DNA of 64,000 nt from positions 1,061,332 through 1,125,331 of the forward strand of contig AZIN01000001.1 of the NCBI GenBank assembly GCA_000511875.1, in the 5' to 3' direction. Below are positions 4,618-62,017 of the stretch, one piece after another. The first letter of the stretch is position 1. Each line of letters opens with the position of its first letter. A program made the position numbers and the translations under genes. The notes under the pieces were generated by a model. The model worked only from the letters and a program-made list of their open reading frames with translations, did not search any database and was not told the DNA's origin. The stretch comes from Gammaproteobacteria bacterium MOLA455. Its GTDB lineage: Bacteria > Pseudomonadota > Gammaproteobacteria > Pseudomonadales > Porticoccaceae.

Positions 4618-6810
<2,193 letters not shown>

Positions 6811-6861
6811 CCTGTTAAGGACTGTAGCCGGCAGCAGCTGGGGTTATTAGCATAGCCCCGG

Positions 6862-8601
6862 TTAGCCACCCTTTGGCGGCGGCCCTGGAACAAACACACC
6901 GTTCTCAAGCGCATAGGCATGCCAAGCGGATACAAGGCGCTCAAGAACCTCGGCATTTTCGCCGCTGACATCACGGCTCTCCGCCACGTCATTTGCGAGA
7001 TTGTATAGCTTCCAAGTTGACGGAGATTTACGGTCGCCATTATCTTTGTTGTAGACCGCTTTCCAATCCCCCACTCGAATACCGCGCTGGAAGTGTAACT
7101 CCCAGGCAAGTGCATCAGTATCTGAGCGCACAGAGTCACGCGATCCGTCTAAAATGGGCTGCCATGACTTTCCAGACGGCGTAGCAATCTCACCAGCCAC
7201 TGGCTCTGGGCTATTTGAGACTTGACCAACAGAAGCCTGTGCAATATCCACAACTGTTGGCATAACATCTCGAACCGATAGAGCACTGGAAATAATTCTC
7301 TGACCTTTGATACTGGGCCCAGAGATAAAGGCGGGAACTCTCACGCCACCCTCTTCTGCATCTCCCTTGGTCTTGCGAAATGGTGCCATTGCGGCTTGCG
7401 CCCATTGGCTGCCATAGGTAATAAAGCTTTCTCCCGTTCCCATCTTTGATAAATCAGCGTTGGCTGATTCTACCGTCGCGAGAACCTTGGCTTTATAGTG
7501 CTGGGGAGTCGAGCTGGCCGTCCTCGTTATAAGAGATCTAGCTTCGATACCCTCAGCACCGTTGTCCGACATAAAAATGACAACTGTATTGTCGAAGTCG
7601 CCGTTGGCACGAAGCTCTTTTAGCACCTTACCAACATTCTGATCCAACGAGTCCACCATGGCCGCGTAAATTTCCATATTGCGCGATTCAATCTTGCGCT
7701 GGCTCTCGGGCAAAGCCTCCCAGTCATTAAGAACTGCAAAACTCGACGTTAGGACAGAATCATCAACTAGCCCCAAGCTTTTCATTCGCGCCAAACGAGC
7801 GGAACGCAGCGCCGCGGGACCAGCATCGTAACGACCCTGATATTTTGCAATCAGATCGGTTGGCGCCTGCAGTGGCCAGTGCGGTGCAGTAAAGGCCAAA
7901 TAGGCAAAGAATGGCTGGTCTGATTCAGCGTCGTCGTTGATATAATCGATAAGGCGTTGGGTAAAAAAATCACTCGAATAGGCACCCACTGGAAATTCAG
8001 CCGGACGCCCGTCCTCTGTGTAAGTCGCAGACTGCAACACTGGATCGCCATTTTGCCCAGCACCAAAATGATCGGCACCACCGTCTAACAACGCAAATGC
8101 TCGATCAAAGCCATGCTCTGTAGGTTGCTGATCAGGCTGATGACCAAGATGCCACTTACCGCTCATTAGTGTTCTGTAGCCGGACTTGGAAAGTACTTCG
8201 GCAATAGTGGTGGTTTCCTGTTTAAGATACCCCTCATAACCAGGCCGTCCTTTCAGCATCGGAAATGAGCGCAGAGCTTCAGCCATAGCACCTATCCCGG
8301 CACGATGATTATCCTGGCCCGTCAGGAGCATGGACCTAGTGGGCGAGCAGGTCGCCGCTGCATATAAATTTGTCATCCGAATCCCCGATGTCGCGAGGGC
8401 ATCAAGGTTTGGCGTTTCGATTTCTCCACCAAAGGCGCCCAGGTCAGAAAATCCCAGGTCGTCAGCAACGATAAGAAGAATATTTGGCGCGCCACCATCA
8501 ACCGAATTCTCGGAGACTCTATCATCAGGGGCAGATGCAATAACGGCCGCCGAACAGGCCAGAGCAATTATAACGAAGACGGCGCTGGTGATATTTTTCA
8601 T
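6862..8601 (-). CDS. Secreted type I sulfatase (arylsulfatase family)
   Basis: This is an alkaline-phosphatase-fold sulfatase that hydrolyses sulfate esters, likely in the periplasm or outside the cell. The 579-residue protein has a Sec signal peptide (hydrophobic residues 6-22, likely cut after the ASA near 24). Metal-ligand motif VADDLGFSDLG lies at 45-55, and the CSPTRS motif at 85-90, whose Cys is matured to formylglycine. GKWHLGH and MSDNGAEG complete the active site. No maturation enzyme (FGE or anSME) is encoded in the window. It is convergent with ligC and downstream of a TonB-dependent receptor on the same strand, which suggests uptake and processing of a sulfated compound. Whether it acts on aryl or sugar sulfates cannot be told. 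Confidence 0.9.
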   Translation of the reverse strand: MKNITSAVFVIIALACSAAVIASAPDDRVSENSVDGGAPNILLIVADDLGFSDLGAFGGEIETPNLDALATSGIRMTNLYAAATCSPTRSMLLTGQDNHRAGIGAMAEALRSFPMLKGRPGYEGYLKQETTTIAEVLSKSGYRTLMSGKWHLGHQPDQQPTEHGFDRAFALLDGGADHFGAGQNGDPVLQSATYTEDGRPAEFPVGAYSSDFFTQRLIDYINDDAESDQPFFAYLAFTAPHWPLQAPTDLIAKYQGRYDAGPAALRSARLARMKSLGLVDDSVLTSSFAVLNDWEALPESQRKIESRNMEIYAAMVDSLDQNVGKVLKELRANGDFDNTVVIFMSDNGAEGIEARSLITRTASSTPQHYKAKVLATVESANADLSKMGTGESFITYGSQWAQAAMAPFRKTKGDAEEGGVRVPAFISGPSIKGQRIISSALSVRDVMPTVVDIAQASVGQVSNSPEPVAGEIATPSGKSWQPILDGSRDSVRSDTDALAWELHFQRGIRVGDWKAVYNKDNGDRKSPSTWKLYNLANDVAESRDVSGENAEVLERLVSAWHAYALENGVFVPGPPPKGG

Positions 8602-54363: not shown

Positions 54364-57300
54364 CTAGGCGGCGTCATTACCGAACTCATTGCTGCCCACA
54401 CGAATACCAAAATGCTTGGAGATGATTTCGGGGAGCAACAACATCGCTGGGGTTAGCAGTAGCGTCAATACAGTGGAGAGCAGCAGGCCATTGACTATGG
54501 CGCTTGCCAGAGGCTGCCACCAGGTGGAAACCATGCCGCCGGCTTCGAAGGTGCGATTAATAATATCGACACTGTAACCATTGGCTAGAGGTAGCAGCCC
54601 AACCACAGTGGTAATAGTGGTTAACATCACCGGGCGAAAGCGTGACTTAGCCGCAGAATAGACCGCCTCCGCTGCGCTCAAGCTGGTGTTACTGCGACGT
54701 AAGAAGTTATAACTATCGATTAGCACAATATTATTGTTAACCACAATCCCGGCCAGAGCGACTATGCCGACACCGGTGAGAATGGTGCTAAATATAGCCT
54801 GAGAGATCAGTAAACCAAGCATTACACCGGCGGTGGACATAACCACTGAAAACAGAATCAAGAATGCCTGATAGAAACTGTTGAACTGCATTACCAGCAT
54901 AATCAACATCAGTGACATGGCCAGAGAGAATGCCAAGCCGAGGAACTCAGCCGAATTAGACTGCTCTTCATTGGCACCACGGAATATCACCTTGATCGAC
55001 TCATCTATATCTTGAGTCGCCAACCATTCTGCAATGGCACTGGTCTGGTTATCCGAAAGATAGCCATCCTCGGTATTGGCCAAAATATAGACAGTCTCAA
55101 GCATATCGATACGTTGAATGACATCCACTCGTGGCTTGGCAACACGCTCACTGAAGCTACTAATAGGCACCGGACCGGCTTGAGTGTTGACGCGCAACTC
55201 GTCCAGAGCCGCCAGCTGACGATTCTCCTCTGGATAGCGCAGACGAATCTCAACTTCGTCGTCGGCATCGTCGGGACGGAATTCACCCAACCTTACGCCG
55301 TTAGTGACCATTTGCACCATCTGGTCAATATTAGCTACATTGACTCCAAGCATTGCAGCGTGGGGTCTGTCGACGACCATTTCCCATTGGATACCAGCCA
55401 GGGGCAGCGTATCTTCGATATCACGCAATCCTTCGACATTGATCTTTATCCAGTCGCGAATATCAGCGGTGGTCTTGTACATCAGCTCACGATCAGAGGA
55501 TGAGATCTGAATTTGAATATCCTTACCCACCGGTGGCCCAGCTTCAACTTCTTTACCGGTGACATAGATTCCCGGCATATTGGCGGTGCTCTGACGGATC
55601 TCAGCAAAAATCTCAAGACTGCCACGCTCGCGCTGGGCTCGGGGGTAGAGCTCCACCAAAAAAGAACTGATCTTGTCTCGACTTGAATCCCGCTCAAGGG
55701 TTATTGAATTGCCTTCACTAAAGCCATAGAGCTGTTGGATACCCGGAATGGTGCTGATGCGCTGCTCGACTTCTGCGGTAATTTTGCGCTGCTCTTCCAC
55801 GGAGAGGTTACCCTGAGCGCGAACATTGACCACGCCATAGCGGTTTTCAATATCGGCAAAAAATGCCTGGCCGGCCCCAAATGTCGCATAACCCAAAAAT
55901 ATGGATATTAGAAAAAATAGTGCTGCGACAGAGGCCATTGCCGGACGGGCAATAATCGGCTTGAGCATCCTCAGATAAAAATTCAGTAACGGTTGAAAGA
56001 GATTTTTTGCCGACTCTTCAGAACCATGATCCTCAGGCAGTTTTTTAGACTTGCCACGACGGCGTGAAATCACTATGCCCAGGGTCGGTGCAAAAATTAG
56101 AGCATAAGTCAGCGACCAACCCAGCACCGCAAAAACGGTAATCGGCAGATAAGACATAAATTCGCCAGAGACACCGGGCCAGAATAGCAGCGGTAAAAAG
56201 GCTGCCAATGTAGTGCCAGTAGAAGCGATAACGGGAATCGCCATACGCTTTACAGCGACCAAATAGGCTTCCCGATTGGACAACCCTTCCGAGGCTCTAG
56301 TGTTGGCGAACTCCACCACTACAATGGCGCCATCAATCAGCATTCCCAGTGACAGCAACAGGCCGAACATCACCATAAAGTTAAAACTAAAGCCAAGCAG
56401 ATAAATCACTATCATCGAACCCAGCAAGCAGAATGGAATGCCAAAACCAACCAGCAAACCCGAGCGCACACCCAGAGTTGCCACAACCAACACCAGCACG
56501 AGAGACATAGCGGTAAGAATATTACCCTGCAGCTCACTGACCATAGACTGGGCATATTCAGAGCTGTCGAAGATATAGTCGATATTGATATTTTGTGAAA
56601 ACTGCCCTTGGTGACTGGCCACAGCGGCACGCACAGCAGCCACGGTTTTAATTGCATTGGCATTGAGTCGCTTGCGCACATCAATGGCGATCGTTTTCTG
56701 ACCATTGATCGTGCTGAAACCACTGGCATCCTTAAAGGTCCGGCGTATGTCAGCGATGTCACCCAAGGTGATCACACCGTCGGCAGTGAAGCGAACCGGA
56801 AGATTGCGAATATCTTCTGTAGTCTCAATAAGGGCCGGCACCTTTATGCCAAAGCGACCCTGAGCCGCATCTATCTCACCCGCAGGGATCAGCAGGTTAT
56901 TGGCACCCACGGAGCGGAGCATTTCATCGGCGGTGATGTTGTATTGCTCGAGACGATAGGGATTCAGAACCGCCTCAACCACTTCATCGCGGTGACCAGA
57001 AATATCGGCTTTCAAGACATCGGGTAGCATCTCAAGTTTGCGCTGAAAAAACTTTGCAGTTCTGTAGAGTTCTCGCTCAGAGACCTGCTCCCCTGAAAAG
57101 GTGATCACCACTGTGGGTTCAGGGCTGGGGCTCAGCTCATTGACTATAGGTTCTTTGGTCTCTTGGGGGAATTCCGCCTTGGCGCGATCCACAGATTCTC
57201 GGACCTCGGAGACCACTTTATCTATATCTTCGCTGATATCGAACTCGGCCATAATATAAATCGCACCCTCTCGGGCAACGGCGTTGATTTCTTCAAGGCC

Positions 57301-57525
57301 ATCTAAGGTCTTCAGTTCTTTTTCTATAGGTCGAATCAGGAGCCGCGTACCGTCTTCCGGCGAGATACCGTCATGCCTGACCATAATCATAACCAATGGC
57401 AGAGTGACGTTGGGGTTAACCTCTACTGGTAGAGCGATGCGCGCCATGGTGCCAGCAAATAATACCAGCAGCATAATCGACAGCGTAGCTCTGGCATGGT
57501 CGACAATCAGATTAAGAAATTTCAT
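54364..57525 (-). CDS. RND-family efflux transporter (inner-membrane pump)
   Basis: This is a 1053-residue HAE1-type RND protein. It has the N-terminal helix, two large periplasmic loops (about 36-330 and 555-860) and the twelve-helix pattern. The GMLIDGAIVVVEFANTRASEGLS segment contains the charged residues of the proton relay in TM4, and RFRPVMLTTITTVVGLLPLA is the conserved segment in TM10-11. It is preceded by its membrane-fusion partner. No outer-membrane channel gene is present, so a separate TolC-like protein would be needed. Substrates cannot be predicted from sequence. Confidence 0.95.
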   Translation of the reverse strand: MKFLNLIVDHARATLSIMLLVLFAGTMARIALPVEVNPNVTLPLVMIMVRHDGISPEDGTRLLIRPIEKELKTLDGLEEINAVAREGAIYIMAEFDISEDIDKVVSEVRESVDRAKAEFPQETKEPIVNELSPSPEPTVVITFSGEQVSERELYRTAKFFQRKLEMLPDVLKADISGHRDEVVEAVLNPYRLEQYNITADEMLRSVGANNLLIPAGEIDAAQGRFGIKVPALIETTEDIRNLPVRFTADGVITLGDIADIRRTFKDASGFSTINGQKTIAIDVRKRLNANAIKTVAAVRAAVASHQGQFSQNINIDYIFDSSEYAQSMVSELQGNILTAMSLVLVLVVATLGVRSGLLVGFGIPFCLLGSMIVIYLLGFSFNFMVMFGLLLSLGMLIDGAIVVVEFANTRASEGLSNREAYLVAVKRMAIPVIASTGTTLAAFLPLLFWPGVSGEFMSYLPITVFAVLGWSLTYALIFAPTLGIVISRRRGKSKKLPEDHGSEESAKNLFQPLLNFYLRMLKPIIARPAMASVAALFFLISIFLGYATFGAGQAFFADIENRYGVVNVRAQGNLSVEEQRKITAEVEQRISTIPGIQQLYGFSEGNSITLERDSSRDKISSFLVELYPRAQRERGSLEIFAEIRQSTANMPGIYVTGKEVEAGPPVGKDIQIQISSSDRELMYKTTADIRDWIKINVEGLRDIEDTLPLAGIQWEMVVDRPHAAMLGVNVANIDQMVQMVTNGVRLGEFRPDDADDEVEIRLRYPEENRQLAALDELRVNTQAGPVPISSFSERVAKPRVDVIQRIDMLETVYILANTEDGYLSDNQTSAIAEWLATQDIDESIKVIFRGANEEQSNSAEFLGLAFSLAMSLMLIMLVMQFNSFYQAFLILFSVVMSTAGVMLGLLISQAIFSTILTGVGIVALAGIVVNNNIVLIDSYNFLRRSNTSLSAAEAVYSAAKSRFRPVMLTTITTVVGLLPLANGYSVDIINRTFEAGGMVSTWWQPLASAIVNGLLLSTVLTLLLTPAMLLLPEIISKHFGIRVGSNEFGNDAA

Positions 57526-57542: not shown

Positions 57543-58655
57543 TTACTGACTGCCAGAGCTATCGTTAGAAGAGCTATCGAAAGAAGAGCTATTTGGAGAA
57601 GAGTTGATTTTGTAAGAAACAGAAACCTGCTCAGCTTCAGTGACATAGTTTTGCCCGACCGTGACTAAGGCCACCCTATCAGGCAATCCAGTTACCCAAA
57701 CACCGTCGCCATTTTCACCCACATTGACCACAGACAAAGTGTTGATAATGCCCTGGTCATCCACCGCGCGAACCACCAAATGACCAGCATCATCGAGCAG
57801 CACCAAACTTGAGGGAATAAGGTGCGCTGCCAGAGGCTCTAATGCAATTTTCAGACCTCCAGACATGCCCGCCAGAAAGCGTAACTGCGGATTGGCAACC
57901 GTTGCTTCAATTCGGTAACTGCGGGTCACAGGATTAGCCTGACGCGACAAATAGCTGATCGCACCGCTCAGAGTCTGACCACTAGCCAGAGTTAATTGCG
58001 CACCTCGAGCTAGAGAAACTTTACCAATCTCTTGCTCAGTGATCTCTGCAGAGACTTTTAAAGGGTTAAGCTCGACCACCTGAGCACAGAACTGACCCGG
58101 CTGAACAAAGTCTCCCACTTCAACAGGACGTCGCTCAACAATGCCGGCGAAAGGCGCTTTGATCGATAAGTTATCCAGATCAAGGGTACTGCGTTCGAGG
58201 GCCACCCGAGCGGATTCAAGCCGGGTTTTAGCCTTGGCAATAGCCAACTCTGACTGGTAGCCGCCCTGCTCAAGTTTTCGTGCACCCTGATATTCGATAG
58301 TGGCTTGTTTGAGGCCGGCTTTTGCCTGTTGAAGACGCAGCTTGCGATCTTCCTGATCCACTTCGCAAAGTGTCGCACCAGCATTGACCAGAGCTCCCTC
58401 AGCTGCCGGAACAGCGACAATTCGGCCAGCAATCTGCGCTTTGACATCCACCGAACGATTGGCTTCAGTTCGTCCACGCAAGATCAATTGCGGCTCATAG
58501 GATTGGATCTCAAACCAGTCAGCCTGCACATTAGTGAGCTTTGATTCGACTTTATTAGAGTTATTTTCAGTGGCCGGAGAGGTAAATAGTCCAGACATCA
58601 ACCACAGCCCTATGGCCAGGGCTATAATAAGTGACACACGCACATTACTGTTCAA
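57543..58655 (-). CDS. RND efflux membrane-fusion (adaptor) protein
   Basis: This HlyD/AcrA-type adaptor has an N-terminal hydrophobic segment (VSLIIALAIGLWLMSGLFT), a biotinyl-lipoyl half (RTEANRSVDVKAQIAGRIVAVPAAEGALV), an alpha-hairpin (about 100-160) and the second lipoyl half (LDNLSIKAPFAGIVERRPVEVGDFV). The beta-barrel and a short domain complete it. The tail is Ser/Asn-rich (SSPNSSSFDSSSNDSSGS). A TTG at 58655 is preferred as start because GGAAG precedes it by 6 bases; another TTG at 58757 lacks a site. It lies 17 bases from the pump gene. Confidence 0.88.
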   Translation of the reverse strand: MNSNVRVSLIIALAIGLWLMSGLFTSPATENNSNKVESKLTNVQADWFEIQSYEPQLILRGRTEANRSVDVKAQIAGRIVAVPAAEGALVNAGATLCEVDQEDRKLRLQQAKAGLKQATIEYQGARKLEQGGYQSELAIAKAKTRLESARVALERSTLDLDNLSIKAPFAGIVERRPVEVGDFVQPGQFCAQVVELNPLKVSAEITEQEIGKVSLARGAQLTLASGQTLSGAISYLSRQANPVTRSYRIEATVANPQLRFLAGMSGGLKIALEPLAAHLIPSSLVLLDDAGHLVVRAVDDQGIINTLSVVNVGENGDGVWVTGLPDRVALVTVGQNYVTEAEQVSVSYKINSSPNSSSFDSSSNDSSGSQ

Positions 58656-59021
58656 GGGTAATCTTCCAATTTTGCTAGTTACTGTTGACGCTCTGACTAC
58701 GGCAGATTCTTCTGTACAGTTTACCTTGGTTTTCACTGTGATGTTGAAAAAATGCAACTTGAATTGTCCAGATGAGAATTTCCATGGACCTAAAAGTAGT
58801 GCGCTCGGTTGGGTTTTAGACTTGAATTAGCGCTAATAAAGCGAGGTATTAATCAGCATTTAGCAACTCGCAATGTGATATCCATAACAAGTTGCCAGCC
58901 TTTAGCGTGTCGCAATTGGCATTTAAGTTTTACTTGGTTGAACTCTGCTATTGCTTAGGGACAATGGGGGTCAAGTAGGGCAGCTATTAATCCGCTGGGA
59001 CACACAAAAGGGACTTTTAAA

Positions 59022-60344
59022 ATGGACATTCAAAACACCGCCGTTGACGCAGTAAAAGCGCAACCAACAGGCAATAAACCTCTTAATCGGCCGATTAAAT
59101 TGACTTTGCAGCCAACCAAATCACTATCCTGGCTGCTTAGAGGTCTGCAAATCATCATCGCGTTAAGTCTAGCCTCAGTATCATTTGCACAAACCGAGCT
59201 AATAATGAACGGCGGCAGTATTTACACCGACTTGGGCAAAGATCAGTTTGCCGCGGCACTCTATTTAGAGACACAGCAGAAAAACCCTAACACCGCTCAT
59301 TCCATGGCAGGTGAAAAACGCATGGAAGTGCGCGTTTTAAACAATTACTCCAAACGCCGCTGGTTCAATTTATGGATGCAGAGCATCTCAATCAACAATA
59401 GCCGAGAATCCTTTTCTGAGTCTGCCCAAGACCTGATGACCCTGATGCAAGCTGCCAAGTCGGCGCCGCAAAAAGGTGATTTTATCGAGTATTTGTCGAG
59501 CCCTGATCAGGGCACATCAATGCGTTTTAATGGCACCGAACTAGTTGCAGGCTTGCCCGGGGAGGTATTCGACCTTTTACTCAACACTTGGATCGGTGCA
59601 ATCCCGCCAACTACCAGTTTTAAAGATGAGATTCTTGGCAAGCAGCGCAACCCAGAGGCAGTCGACTTGCTCGACAGAGTTACCACAGATCCACAGCGAG
59701 TGGATCTGGCGGCATCCTGGATACGGCCACCAGAACCTGTGGCTGAAATAGTTGCCAAGGTAAAGCCGGAGCCTGCCAACAAAGAGCAGCTCAAAGTCAA
59801 AACCGCGGTTTCAGCTAAGCCAAAAGTCCTTCCAGAATCTCTTGAAAACCAACCTGTAGCTCCTAAAACAGCGACAGTAGCAACCGCGGCCTTGACTGCA
59901 GATGAACCCCCTGCAGTAACACCCAAGGCTGAGGCTGACAGTAAAAACACTAAAACTGACAGCCTTGCCAAGACGTCAGCTGAAACCGCTTCGGCTGCTC
60001 AAGAAGTTGCCGCTGACACTGAAGACGAAGTCGATTTTAGCATTGCCGAGGCTCTGGCTATGCGCGACTACACGCCTTTAGTGGTTCAGGCGATCTTCAA
60101 GAAGATCCGCTATCCCAGCCGCGCTATTGATAAAGGTTATGAGGGCACCGTACGCATGTCGATAGTCGTGAATAAATCTGGCGTTCTAGAGAAAGCCACT
60201 GTAGCCCAGGAGAGCAAATACTCGATACTCAACAAAGCAGCTATCAAGGCTACCGAAAAGGCGGCACCCTTTCCTGAGTTGCCAGCTGCACTGAATACAA
60301 ATCAATTCGAAATCACCGTGCCCATAACCTTCAAACTGCAGTAA
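59022..60344 (+). CDS. Chalcone-isomerase-like / TonB C-terminal fusion protein
   Basis: This 440-residue protein appears to combine two folds. Residues about 38-57 form a hydrophobic signal that looks cleavable (SVSFAQ). Residues 60-207 match the chalcone-isomerase-like domain: FAAALYLE, KRMEVRVLNNYSKRRWFNLW, KGDFIEYLSSPDQGTSMRFNGTEL and FDLLLNTWIGAIPP. A Lys/Ala/Glu/Pro-rich linker (about 236-345) leads to a TonB C-terminal domain (350-440) with RYPSRAIDKGYEGTVRMSIVVNKSG. TonB normally has only an uncleaved N-terminal helix. No ExbB or ExbD gene is nearby. The role is unknown; an envelope anchor or receptor partner is possible. Confidence 0.8.
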   Translation: MDIQNTAVDAVKAQPTGNKPLNRPIKLTLQPTKSLSWLLRGLQIIIALSLASVSFAQTELIMNGGSIYTDLGKDQFAAALYLETQQKNPNTAHSMAGEKRMEVRVLNNYSKRRWFNLWMQSISINNSRESFSESAQDLMTLMQAAKSAPQKGDFIEYLSSPDQGTSMRFNGTELVAGLPGEVFDLLLNTWIGAIPPTTSFKDEILGKQRNPEAVDLLDRVTTDPQRVDLAASWIRPPEPVAEIVAKVKPEPANKEQLKVKTAVSAKPKVLPESLENQPVAPKTATVATAALTADEPPAVTPKAEADSKNTKTDSLAKTSAETASAAQEVAADTEDEVDFSIAEALAMRDYTPLVVQAIFKKIRYPSRAIDKGYEGTVRMSIVVNKSGVLEKATVAQESKYSILNKAAIKATEKAAPFPELPAALNTNQFEITVPITFKLQ

Positions 60345-60351
60345 CAAAGCC

Positions 60352-60374
60352 GCGGCACAGTCTCTCTGTGCCGC
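60352..60374 (+). terminator. Hairpin after the TonB-fusion gene
   Basis: GCGGCACAG (60352-60360) pairs perfectly with CTGTGCCGC (60366-60374), loop TCTCT, 7 bases past the stop. No clear T-run follows. Confidence 0.55.
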
Positions 60375-60483: not shown

Positions 60484-61014
60484 ATGAGCTACAACGACGT
60501 CCCAGCAGGCAATGATCTACCCAATGATATTAATGTAATTATCGAGATTCCAGCGAATCACGATCCGATCAAATATGAAGTCGATAAAGACAGCGATGCG
60601 ATCTTTGTCGACCGTTTTGTAGCTACGCCAATGTTCTACCCAGCTAACTACGGCTATGTGCCACAGACTCTGTCAGAAGATGGCGACCCACTGGATGTAT
60701 TGGTTGTATCCCCCTACCCAGTAGTGCCTGGCGCAGTGATCCGCAGCCGTGTTGTAGGCGTTCTCAACATGACTGACGAGTCTGGTGTCGACGCCAAGCT
60801 TCTCGCCGTGCCACACACAAAACTGACTAAGATCTATGATCATGTTCAGGAGATTGCTGATTTACCTGAACTTCTGCTGAAGCAGATCGTCCACTATTTT
60901 GAAAACTACAAGGCTCTCGAGCCAGGAAAGTGGGTTAAGGTAGATGGATGGGACAACGCCGAAGCGGCGCGTGCTGAAATTATGTCATCTCGCGAGCGCT
61001 ATTTGGCGGAGTAA
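60484..61014 (+). CDS. ppa: Inorganic pyrophosphatase (family I)
   Basis: This soluble enzyme hydrolyses PPi, pulling biosynthetic reactions forward. The 176-residue length matches E. coli Ppa. [24 protein letters not shown] contains the family signature with its metal-binding Asp residues. [17 protein letters not shown] is the N-terminal landmark, and [20 protein letters not shown] the C-terminal one. It is followed by a strong bidirectional terminator facing rpoS. Confidence 0.98.
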
Positions 61015-61096: not shown

Positions 61097-62017
61097 CTAA
61101 GCTCCGTCCAATTCCTCAAACAGTACGTCACCATTTAGCCCATGCTTTCGCAGGACATCGCGCAGCCTTCTTAGAGCATCGACCTGGATCTGACGAACAC
61201 GCTCTCTGGTGAGGCCGATCTCGCGCCCAACTTGCTCCAGCGTCTCCTCCTGATGATGCAGCAGACCAAAGCGCCTAACTAACACTTCGCGCTGTTTTTC
61301 AGGTAGCTGAGTGAGCCACTTATTAAGTACTTCGGAAAGATTTTCGCCTTCGATCTGGCGCTCAGGGCTACTGGCTCCTTCCGCGGAAATGGTTTCGATA
61401 AGACTCTTCTCATTTTCAGCAACCGGTATATCGATGGACGAAATACGTTCGCTGAGACTGAATATCTTCAGTACATCTTCCACTGGCTTATCCACCTCTT
61501 CGGCAATTTCCTCCGGTGTCGGTGTATGATCGAGCTGTTGAGCTAGCTTGCGCGATGCGCGCACATAGACATTGAGCTCTTTCACTATGTGCACCGGCAA
61601 TCTAATGGTCCGAGTCTGATTCATCAGTCCGCGCTCAATAGTTTGCCTAATCCACCAGGTTGCATAGGTGGAGAAACGATAGCCCAGCTCGGGGTCGAAC
61701 TTTTCTACCGCACGCATTAGGCCAATATTACCCTCCTCGATTAAATCGAGCAGTTCGAGGCCACGATTGACATAGCGACGCGCGATTTTAACCACTAACC
61801 GCAGATTGCTTTCGATCATACGCTTACGCGCTGATTCATCACCTTTGAGGAATTTTCGAGCGAAGAAGACTTCTTCGGCTGCCGTAAGTAACGGAGCATA
61901 GCCAATCTCTTTGAGATAGAGACTGGTGGCATCAATAACCTGATGACTGACTTCCGATGAGCTTCCTTGATCGTCGTTTTGTGCTTTTCTTAAATCTACT
62001 TTTAACGCTGATTCCAT
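61097..62017 (-). CDS. rpoS: RNA polymerase sigma factor RpoS
   Basis: This is the stationary-phase and general-stress sigma factor. The 306-residue protein has region 1.2 ([21 protein letters not shown]) and region 2 ([40 protein letters not shown]). Region 3 is [12 protein letters not shown], and region 4.2 has [29 protein letters not shown]. It is somewhat shorter at the N-terminus than E. coli RpoS. nlpD lies 225 bases upstream on the same strand, the classic arrangement in which an rpoS promoter can sit within or after nlpD; that gap is AT-rich without another gene. Confidence 0.97.

Follow-up and report, generated by a model that had tools for sequence, protein, structure and literature searches.

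A chalcone-isomerase-like domain joined to a TonB C-terminal domain in a conserved and probably exported protein family of the Pseudomonadales

The gene at positions 59022–60344 (plus strand) of the window, by which we mean the whole 64 000-nucleotide stretch of DNA from Gammaproteobacteria bacterium MOLA455 analysed here, encodes a protein that joins a chalcone-isomerase-like domain to a TonB C-terminal domain, and this pairing of Chalcone_3 with TonB_C goes far back and has been conserved throughout an order of bacteria. The reading that we favour, to which we give a probability of roughly 0.55, is that the fusion protein is exported and serves in the periplasm as an adaptor with an unenergised TonB tail.

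The fusion gene and its product

The ORF encodes 440 amino acids from an ATG start that lies 8 bases 3′ of a GGGA run (AAAAGGGA, positions 59006–59013, plus strand) resembling, by eye, a ribosome-binding site. The stop codon is followed by a terminator-like hairpin of nine pairs (60352–60374), whose T tail was scored on the minus strand; five such hairpin sites are present in the whole stretch against 1.8 expected. Both domains are identified by Pfam in the predicted product, with matches to Chalcone_3 (PF16036) at residues 52–206 (56.7 bits, cut-off 27), to TonB_C at residues 361–439 (57.3 bits, cut-off 24.6) and to TonB_2 (27.6 bits, cut-off 22), and the NCBIfam TonB family protein model is matched as well (61.9 bits, cut-off 27.1). 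When the PDB was searched with the protein using phmmer, TonB chains exclusively were found below an E-value of 0.01. Taking Pfam and predicted fold together, we assign the chalcone-isomerase-like domain to residues 57–206 (59190–59639) and the TonB C-terminal domain to residues 341–440 (60042–60341), both on the plus strand.

An AlphaFold2 model built from 21 sequences contains a helix at residues 32–52, a compact domain at about 57–233, a low-confidence linker and the tail, with pLDDT values mostly about 90 or more in blocks of both domains. Comparison of a predicted structure with the two folds had been set as a check beforehand, and both the chalcone-isomerase fold and the TonB tail were recovered. 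Chalcone isomerase 1jx1_B aligns with residues 54–209 of the model (VIA-align; Z 14.7, rmsd 2.4, 153 aligned), and the plant proteins AtFAP1 and AtFAP3 match with Z 13.8 and 13.7 respectively. The tail matches that of Helicobacter pylori TonB (6sly; residues 344–440, Z 12.2, rmsd 2.0, 92 aligned), E. coli TonB as seen bound to BtuB (2gsk; Z 9.1, rmsd 2.1, 81 aligned) and Pseudomonas aeruginosa TolA III (1lr0; Z 11.4, rmsd 5.6, 106 aligned). A model of the distant relative L055 likewise matches chalcone isomerase (Z 14.2, rmsd 3.2, 155 aligned) and a TonB tail (Z 12.0, rmsd 2.0, 92 aligned). Between the domains lies a flexible linker, residues 235–340 (59724–60041, plus strand), which is rich in A, E, P and K and is mostly modelled at pLDDT below 50; all residues but one from 242 to 336 fall below that value, as is typical of flexible linkers. 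The sequence-only reading had placed a chalcone-isomerase-like domain at residues 60–207, a linker after it and a TonB domain at the C-terminus, and all three are borne out.

Distribution and descent

Of 390 sampled genomes from the order, no fewer than 74 carry the fusion, at 82 or more loci in 20 families (the family labels of the sample, assigned by hand, reach 47). These loci were counted by hand: profile matches starting at or before position 41 and ending at or after position 362 of 392 gave 77 loci, with partial matches such as G140:C67, G097:C1:187138 and G171 dropped, and five genomes (G039, G067, G174, G229 and G286, the last with a reported stop codon) were added through double matches joined by coordinate. 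The search of the order used a profile of 15 fusions and matched 323 of the 390 genomes at 10−8, many of them by TonB tails alone. Across the class, the fusion profile matched one of 369 genomes at 10−25, namely the window's own, at a threshold that weaker or very divergent fusions could escape. Chalcone_3 matched 116 of the same 369; no match to the TonB-tail profile was found in 12 Chalcone_3 loci from 11 class genomes, chosen among those with the longest frames; other Chalcone_3 frames of 283–298 aa, and the weakly matching frame of 518 aa in G498, lay outside this set. A search for related loci returned 22, including those of the marine strain HTCC2207 (L042, best-segment identity 66 %), the SAR92 clade, other Porticoccaceae and one member of the Spongiibacteraceae.

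Of 22 relatives from the window's genus, 12 gave a match to the chalcone-like portion of the protein. A stop codon shortens the frame in G009, the fusion of G012 is split over two frames (L015/L052), and L053, from another genome, is also split; with the limited occurrence, these three interrupted copies indicate that the fusion is dispensable in the genus. We note that the interrupted loci in this genus are L017, L015/L052 and L053, and that nine genomes, drafts in which gaps are possible, had no match at all, four of 1.2–1.4 Mb (G005, G008, G010 and G014) and five larger (G003, G006, G007, G015 and G020). Such split or interrupted copies (L015/L052 of G012, L053 and L017) might suggest that the fusion is a chance join or an artefact of annotation, but this is scarcely credible for a gene of at least 74 genomes in 20 families, one of the 74 with a reported stop codon, and the 30 loci fetched by the order search all match both domain profiles in one frame (some of them also contributed to the profiles). 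We have rejected that explanation.

For comparisons of sequence, 71 fusions were collapsed on identity of the last 150 residues to 54 distinct ones, and these were set against 24 standalone domains, a non-random sample of the best-scoring and longest-frame class hits plus L022. In a tree of the chalcone-like domains of all 78, obtained by a quick search with no bootstrap and with seven long branches flagged, the fusions make up one side of a single branch (SH-aLRT 99), and the nearest neighbour of the fusion clade is L022, a standalone protein of the same order. The tree of TonB tails (58 rows and 97 columns, poorly resolved), from which 14 fusions chosen as close to others were omitted, does not unite the fusions and calls for five changes, at least three of them forced by well-supported branches. 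Tails may have been exchanged, or the tail tree may be too short to tell.

N-terminus and export

The first 56 residues (59022–59189, plus strand) form a putative signal peptide with a hydrophobic core at about residues 43–53, the sequence S-F-A at residues 54–56 and a predicted mature start at Q57, assigned from the A-x-A pattern and its conservation. The n-region is unusually long (about 38 residues), a feature that counts against the adaptor reading. An A-x-A type site ([AVSGTLI]-x-A) lies 5–20 residues past the start of the hydrophobic core in 53 of the 54 distinct fusions; L046, the sole exception, reads S-A-Y-S and may also be cleaved there. A lipobox-like match follows the core start in two of the 54, and some fusions may be lipoproteins. 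No fusion has a histidine in its 14-residue hydrophobic core, whereas six of eight conventional TonBs of the order do (L023, whose start is missing, was excluded from this control, and the local tail profile did not hit L004). A Ser-X-His motor-binding motif is quoted in PMC12204202 and agrees with histidine being part of the motif. The pattern of an uncut N-terminal membrane helix with a motor-binding histidine is thus not that of the fusions.

The A-x-A type sites and the lack of a core histidine together support export well, and the signal peptides are probably cleaved. The sequence-only reading had proposed a cleavable signal and, from that, a protein that ExbBD cannot drive as usual; pattern and conservation favour both proposals, since loss of the signal would probably make drive in the usual way impossible. 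Were the signal to remain uncleaved, the protein would be anchored in the membrane, and this is a caveat on the adaptor reading. An ExbB-ExbD-TonB gene set is seen by eye elsewhere in the window's genome (L003), so that the usual motor role is already filled.

It is quite improbable, in our estimate, that the fusion is a motor-driven TonB paralogue, with its N-terminal segment kept as an ExbBD-bound anchor and the chalcone-like domain as a periplasmic insertion. Such a protein would have the tail observed here, which in both profile and fold is that of an ordinary TonB, and linkers whose proline content resembles that of TonB. In L055, moreover, an ExbD gene does lie some 4 kb past the fusion, and L088 has a gene of the same cluster. 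The N-terminus is nevertheless difficult to reconcile with it, given the A-x-A type sites and the missing histidine (which two of the eight conventional TonBs also lack), and the site is followed at once by a folded domain, whereas in TonB the linker comes at this point. Of the ORFs at 54–64 kb of the stretch, none was recognized by eye as ExbB- or ExbD-like.

The chalcone-isomerase-like domain

The chalcone-isomerase fold is best known from plants. When six diverse fusions were scanned with Pfam, all exceeded the cut-off for TonB_C and four that for Chalcone_3, the other two scoring 25.3 and 20.3 bits against a cut-off of 27. Residue 68 occupies what we take to be the place of an arginine with which the plant relatives bind their substrate or fatty acid, as located in alignments of the fusions and standalone domains and supported by a weak profile alignment with AtFAP3. 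Arginine is found there in 15 of the 24 standalone domains and in none of the 54 fusions (tyrosine 31 times, histidine 8 times, glutamate 8 times, phenylalanine 7 times); since nine standalone proteins also lack it, its absence alone is no marker of a fusion. The fusions keep residues of their own, R112 (51 of 54), W118 (49), I124 (48), N125 (52) and N126 (49), and have D153 (54), N170 (52) and W190 (53) in common with the standalone proteins. The domain is followed by a helical cap specific to the fusions, residues 211–233 (59652–59720, plus strand), which was delimited by alignment and appears as short helices in the AlphaFold2 model; R226 is present in 53 and W233 in 46 of the 54, and residues 213–233 have no counterpart in any of the 24 standalone relatives. 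Judged by the absent arginine, the residues of its own and the cap, the fusion domain is a distinct, constrained subfamily that is unlikely to do plant-type chemistry. In L106 the fusion gene (4980–6323) is followed in the same direction by a gene for a standalone chalcone-like protein (6538–7194).

Several observations on neighbouring genes concern the possible ligand of this domain. Standalone Chalcone_3 genes of other orders adjoin, by eye, genes for MFS proteins (L120, L122 and L128), a DUF3833-like lipoprotein (L121 and L122) and a CFA-like protein (L128), hinting at membrane-lipid work. Both fetched genomes of family f4 have a TRAP operon behind the fusion and with its orientation (L055:8370–12031 and L088:4528–8312); the genes of L055 were identified as TAtT, DctP and DctM by Pfam and as DctQ by eye, and those of L088 by cluster. 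A review (PMC5812351) suggests hydrophobic substrates for TRAP systems of the TAtT type. One could suppose from these neighbours, and from a fold common to plant chalcone isomerases and fatty-acid-binding proteins, that the domain is a lipid enzyme or carrier which the tail merely places at the outer membrane. We consider this unlikely, as the plant-type arginine is absent from all 54 distinct fusions, which makes a ligand of the fatty-acid type less likely, and the TRAP linkage was seen in a single family. The fold, the TAtT-type operon and the CFA-, MFS- and DUF3833-like neighbours of standalone relatives are weak hints of a hydrophobic ligand.

Linker and tail-only relatives

The linkers of the 54 distinct fusions are 61–164 aa long and consist mostly of A, E, P, K, S and T. 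Proline makes up 10 % or more of the linker in 35, and eight contain a run of 45 or more residues free of proline and glycine; in the model of L055 a helix of 59 residues (247–305, pLDDT about 55–90) extends over a portion of the linker and the opening helix of the tail. Helix-rich and proline types of TolA spacer are both mentioned in PMC12204202. Length and flexibility seem to matter in these linkers and not sequence, and with reach kept and sequence free they are spacer-like.

Nine loci in two families (L134–L136 of f16, and L137–L142), chosen for their high tail scores in the order search, encode proteins of 128–224 aa that have, by eye, a signal-like start followed by a TonB tail; no match to the chalcone profile was found in the nine (Pfam on three). 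The mature parts of L135 and L136 start with P-R-L-N/S-G, which by eye resembles the first strand of the f16 fusions and is not seen in L134, and these two look as if the chalcone-like domain had been deleted. The tail tree places the two sets of these small proteins apart from each other and among the fusions. Their make-up, a signal-like start and a tail only, suggests that the tail can be of use even where no motor anchor is present.

Gene neighbours and the cNMP-binding partner

In the window the fusion gene is flanked by a divergent gene for an HlyD-type membrane-fusion protein (57543–58757, minus strand), which adjoins an AcrB-type RND pump gene (54364–57525, minus strand), and downstream by an inorganic pyrophosphatase gene (60484–61014, plus strand), all three identified by Pfam; an ORF at 61097–62017 was recognized by eye as coding for a sigma factor of the rpoD/rpoH type. 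Throughout the window's genus, as far as contigs reach, the genes keep the order RND pump–HlyD–fusion–pyrophosphatase, with small ORFs inserted at some loci, and among the fetched loci the pyrophosphatase gene occurs only in those of the type found in this genus.

A different neighbour accompanies the fusion in many other genomes. Twelve distinct genomes among those fetched have, upstream of the fusion and in opposite orientation, a gene for a cyclic-nucleotide-binding (cNMP-binding) protein of 214–258 aa, and four of these proteins, when scanned, had no other Pfam domain over the cut-off. Such a gene is within 3 kb at 35 of 82 fusion loci, in 35 genomes of ten families, and is head-to-head with the fusion in all 35. 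HlyD genes of the same cluster as the window's adjoin the cNMP-binding gene in L089, L092 (by Pfam) and L093 and are two genes off in L100. The wider settings of the pair differ, being HlyD-RND in f1 and f16, proS-SLT in f4 and f30 (proS by eye) and others in f47. At 10−20 the cNMP-binding protein was found in 92 of 390 genomes, 48 with the fusion and 44 without a counted fusion, a co-occurrence with an odds ratio of 11.4 (Fisher, P=7×10−18) that ignores relatedness and treats the two counts as drawn from the same 390 genomes, as equal counts and the range of handles imply. The partner is missing from 26 of the 74 fusion genomes, including those of the window's genus; the window's genome has three other cNMP-binding domains, none of which matches the partner profile at 10−20. 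By its domain the partner is presumably cytoplasmic and would make no direct contact with an exported fusion, and shared control would be the simplest link between the two genes. Members of the cNMP-binding family also occur with no fusion nearby, at L148:3692–4564 (directly before an HlyD gene), L144:3768–4400 and L147:3650–4339; neighbours were read in seven of the 11 fetched loci of this kind, L143, L146, L151 and L153 being outside the seven.

A further group of neighbours hints at a function connected with the cell wall. A gene for an SLT transglycosylase adjoins the cNMP-binding gene in L055 and L088, both of one family, and is one ORF off in L097, of another (Pfam on L055), and in one family SLT genes stand beside the tail-only loci (L137–L139, L141 and L142; Pfam on L139 and L142, the others by eye). 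TonB tails can bind peptidoglycan, and a fusion that does so might be a wall-associated factor linked to wall turnover. This strikes us as improbable, as most fetched contexts have no SLT gene next to the fusion and the setting with proS (identified by eye) and SLT may reflect no more than a gene order that was inherited. SelO (protein AMPylase) genes adjoin the fusion in L089 (6420–7889, Pfam), and, by eye, the cNMP-binding gene in L148 (2223–3692) and the tail-only loci L138–L142 of f13, and this adjacency is perhaps an old shared gene order.

Proposed function

We propose that the fusion is exported by the Sec route, after which the signal would be cut off, and that it acts in the periplasm as an adaptor, probably with no link to the ExbBD motor. 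Its TonB tail would dock on a partner in the envelope as other TonB tails do, either by adding a strand to a TonB-box-like segment of a protein in the periplasm or outer membrane or by binding to the wall, and the chalcone-like domain, on a tether of 60–160 residues, would carry or sense a partner near the docking place, perhaps a hydrophobic molecule. For many of the relatives, a link in expression with the divergently transcribed cNMP-binding protein of the cytoplasm is probable. Recovery of both folds, the signal pattern, a motor role that is already filled, the spacer-like linkers, the single clade of fusion domains, pairing with the cNMP-binding gene, the tail-only proteins and the analogy with VreA described below all speak for the adaptor reading. 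It is weakened by a tail tree that does not unite the fusions, by the fusion genomes that lack the cNMP-binding partner, by the 44 genomes that have this partner and no counted fusion, and by dispensability in the genus.

A bolder version, possible and in our opinion rather doubtful, is that these proteins are a new periplasmic signalling or carrier class of the Pseudomonadales, in which the unpowered tail is a docking foot, the chalcone-isomerase fold has become a receptor, its pocket re-made and a cap added, and the cNMP-binding protein, co-inherited head-to-head, is the inner partner. If so, such a protein might rival motor-driven TonB in binding receptors, or indicate whether these are occupied. 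The TonB tail is regarded as the part through which a motor does its work; a family of long standing and order-wide spread, in which the signal is likely to be cut and some relatives have little but the tail, would demonstrate a use for the tail without force, and would allow a direct test of what free TonB tails bind in the periplasm. The fusion would also place the chalcone-isomerase fold in an envelope role in bacteria, with the plant-type arginine not kept.

Comparison with known systems

With TonB (PF03544, TIGR01352) the fusions have in common the tail, by profile and fold, and the make-up of the spacer; unlike TonB, they lack the core histidine, have a signal that is likely to be cut and contain an extra folded domain. 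TolA resembles them in the fold of the tail and, for some relatives, in a proline-free stalk, and differs in that no membrane anchor is expected in the fusion; no tol-pal genes were recognized by eye among the ORFs at 54–64 kb. The standalone exported Chalcone_3 proteins of Gammaproteobacteria share the other domain, but the 24 members compared end within 15 residues of it and carry roughly 20 additional residues ahead of the first strand common to both groups, whereas R112, W118, the INN sequence and the C-terminal cap belong to the fusions; the arginine is kept in 15 of the 24 standalone proteins and in 0 of 54 fusions. Plant chalcone isomerase, AtFAP1 and AtFAP3 have the fold in common with the fusion domain at 11–18 % identity over the plant matches listed, and the fusion differs in being an exported bacterial protein without the arginine.

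Among the literature matches listed, we found no account of the pairing of a chalcone-like domain with a TonB tail, of its order-wide spread, of the cNMP-binding partner or of the tail-only proteins. For bacterial chalcone isomerases and Chalcone_3 there was nothing on point among the matches listed, those for Chalcone_3/PF16036 being nearly all plant flavonoid work, and the word chalcone is absent from the text of PMC12204202.

The closest analogue is VreA (PA0674) of the PUMA3 cell-surface signalling system of P. aeruginosa, which in PMC2729926 is described as having a signal, an STN domain, a short linker and a TonB/TolA tail; the tagged protein was mostly soluble, and the tail was proposed to bind an outer-membrane partner (PMC2729926). 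Compared with VreA by that description, the fusion likewise has a signal sequence, a folded N-terminal domain of another kind, a linker and a TonB/TolA-type tail, whereas it carries a chalcone-like domain in place of STN, a linker of 61–164 aa in place of a short one and a cNMP-binding partner in place of a sigma/anti-sigma set. The window protein gave no Pfam match to STN, and no ECF-sigma/anti-sigma pair was recognized by eye among the ORFs at 54–64 kb. VreA makes exported proteins that join a TonB tail to some other domain a type already described, and the suggestion in the sequence-only reading of a new envelope-protein architecture is therefore to be narrowed: the domain pairing is real, but it belongs to a family conserved across the order and not to a lone protein, and it has in VreA a precedent for its general plan.
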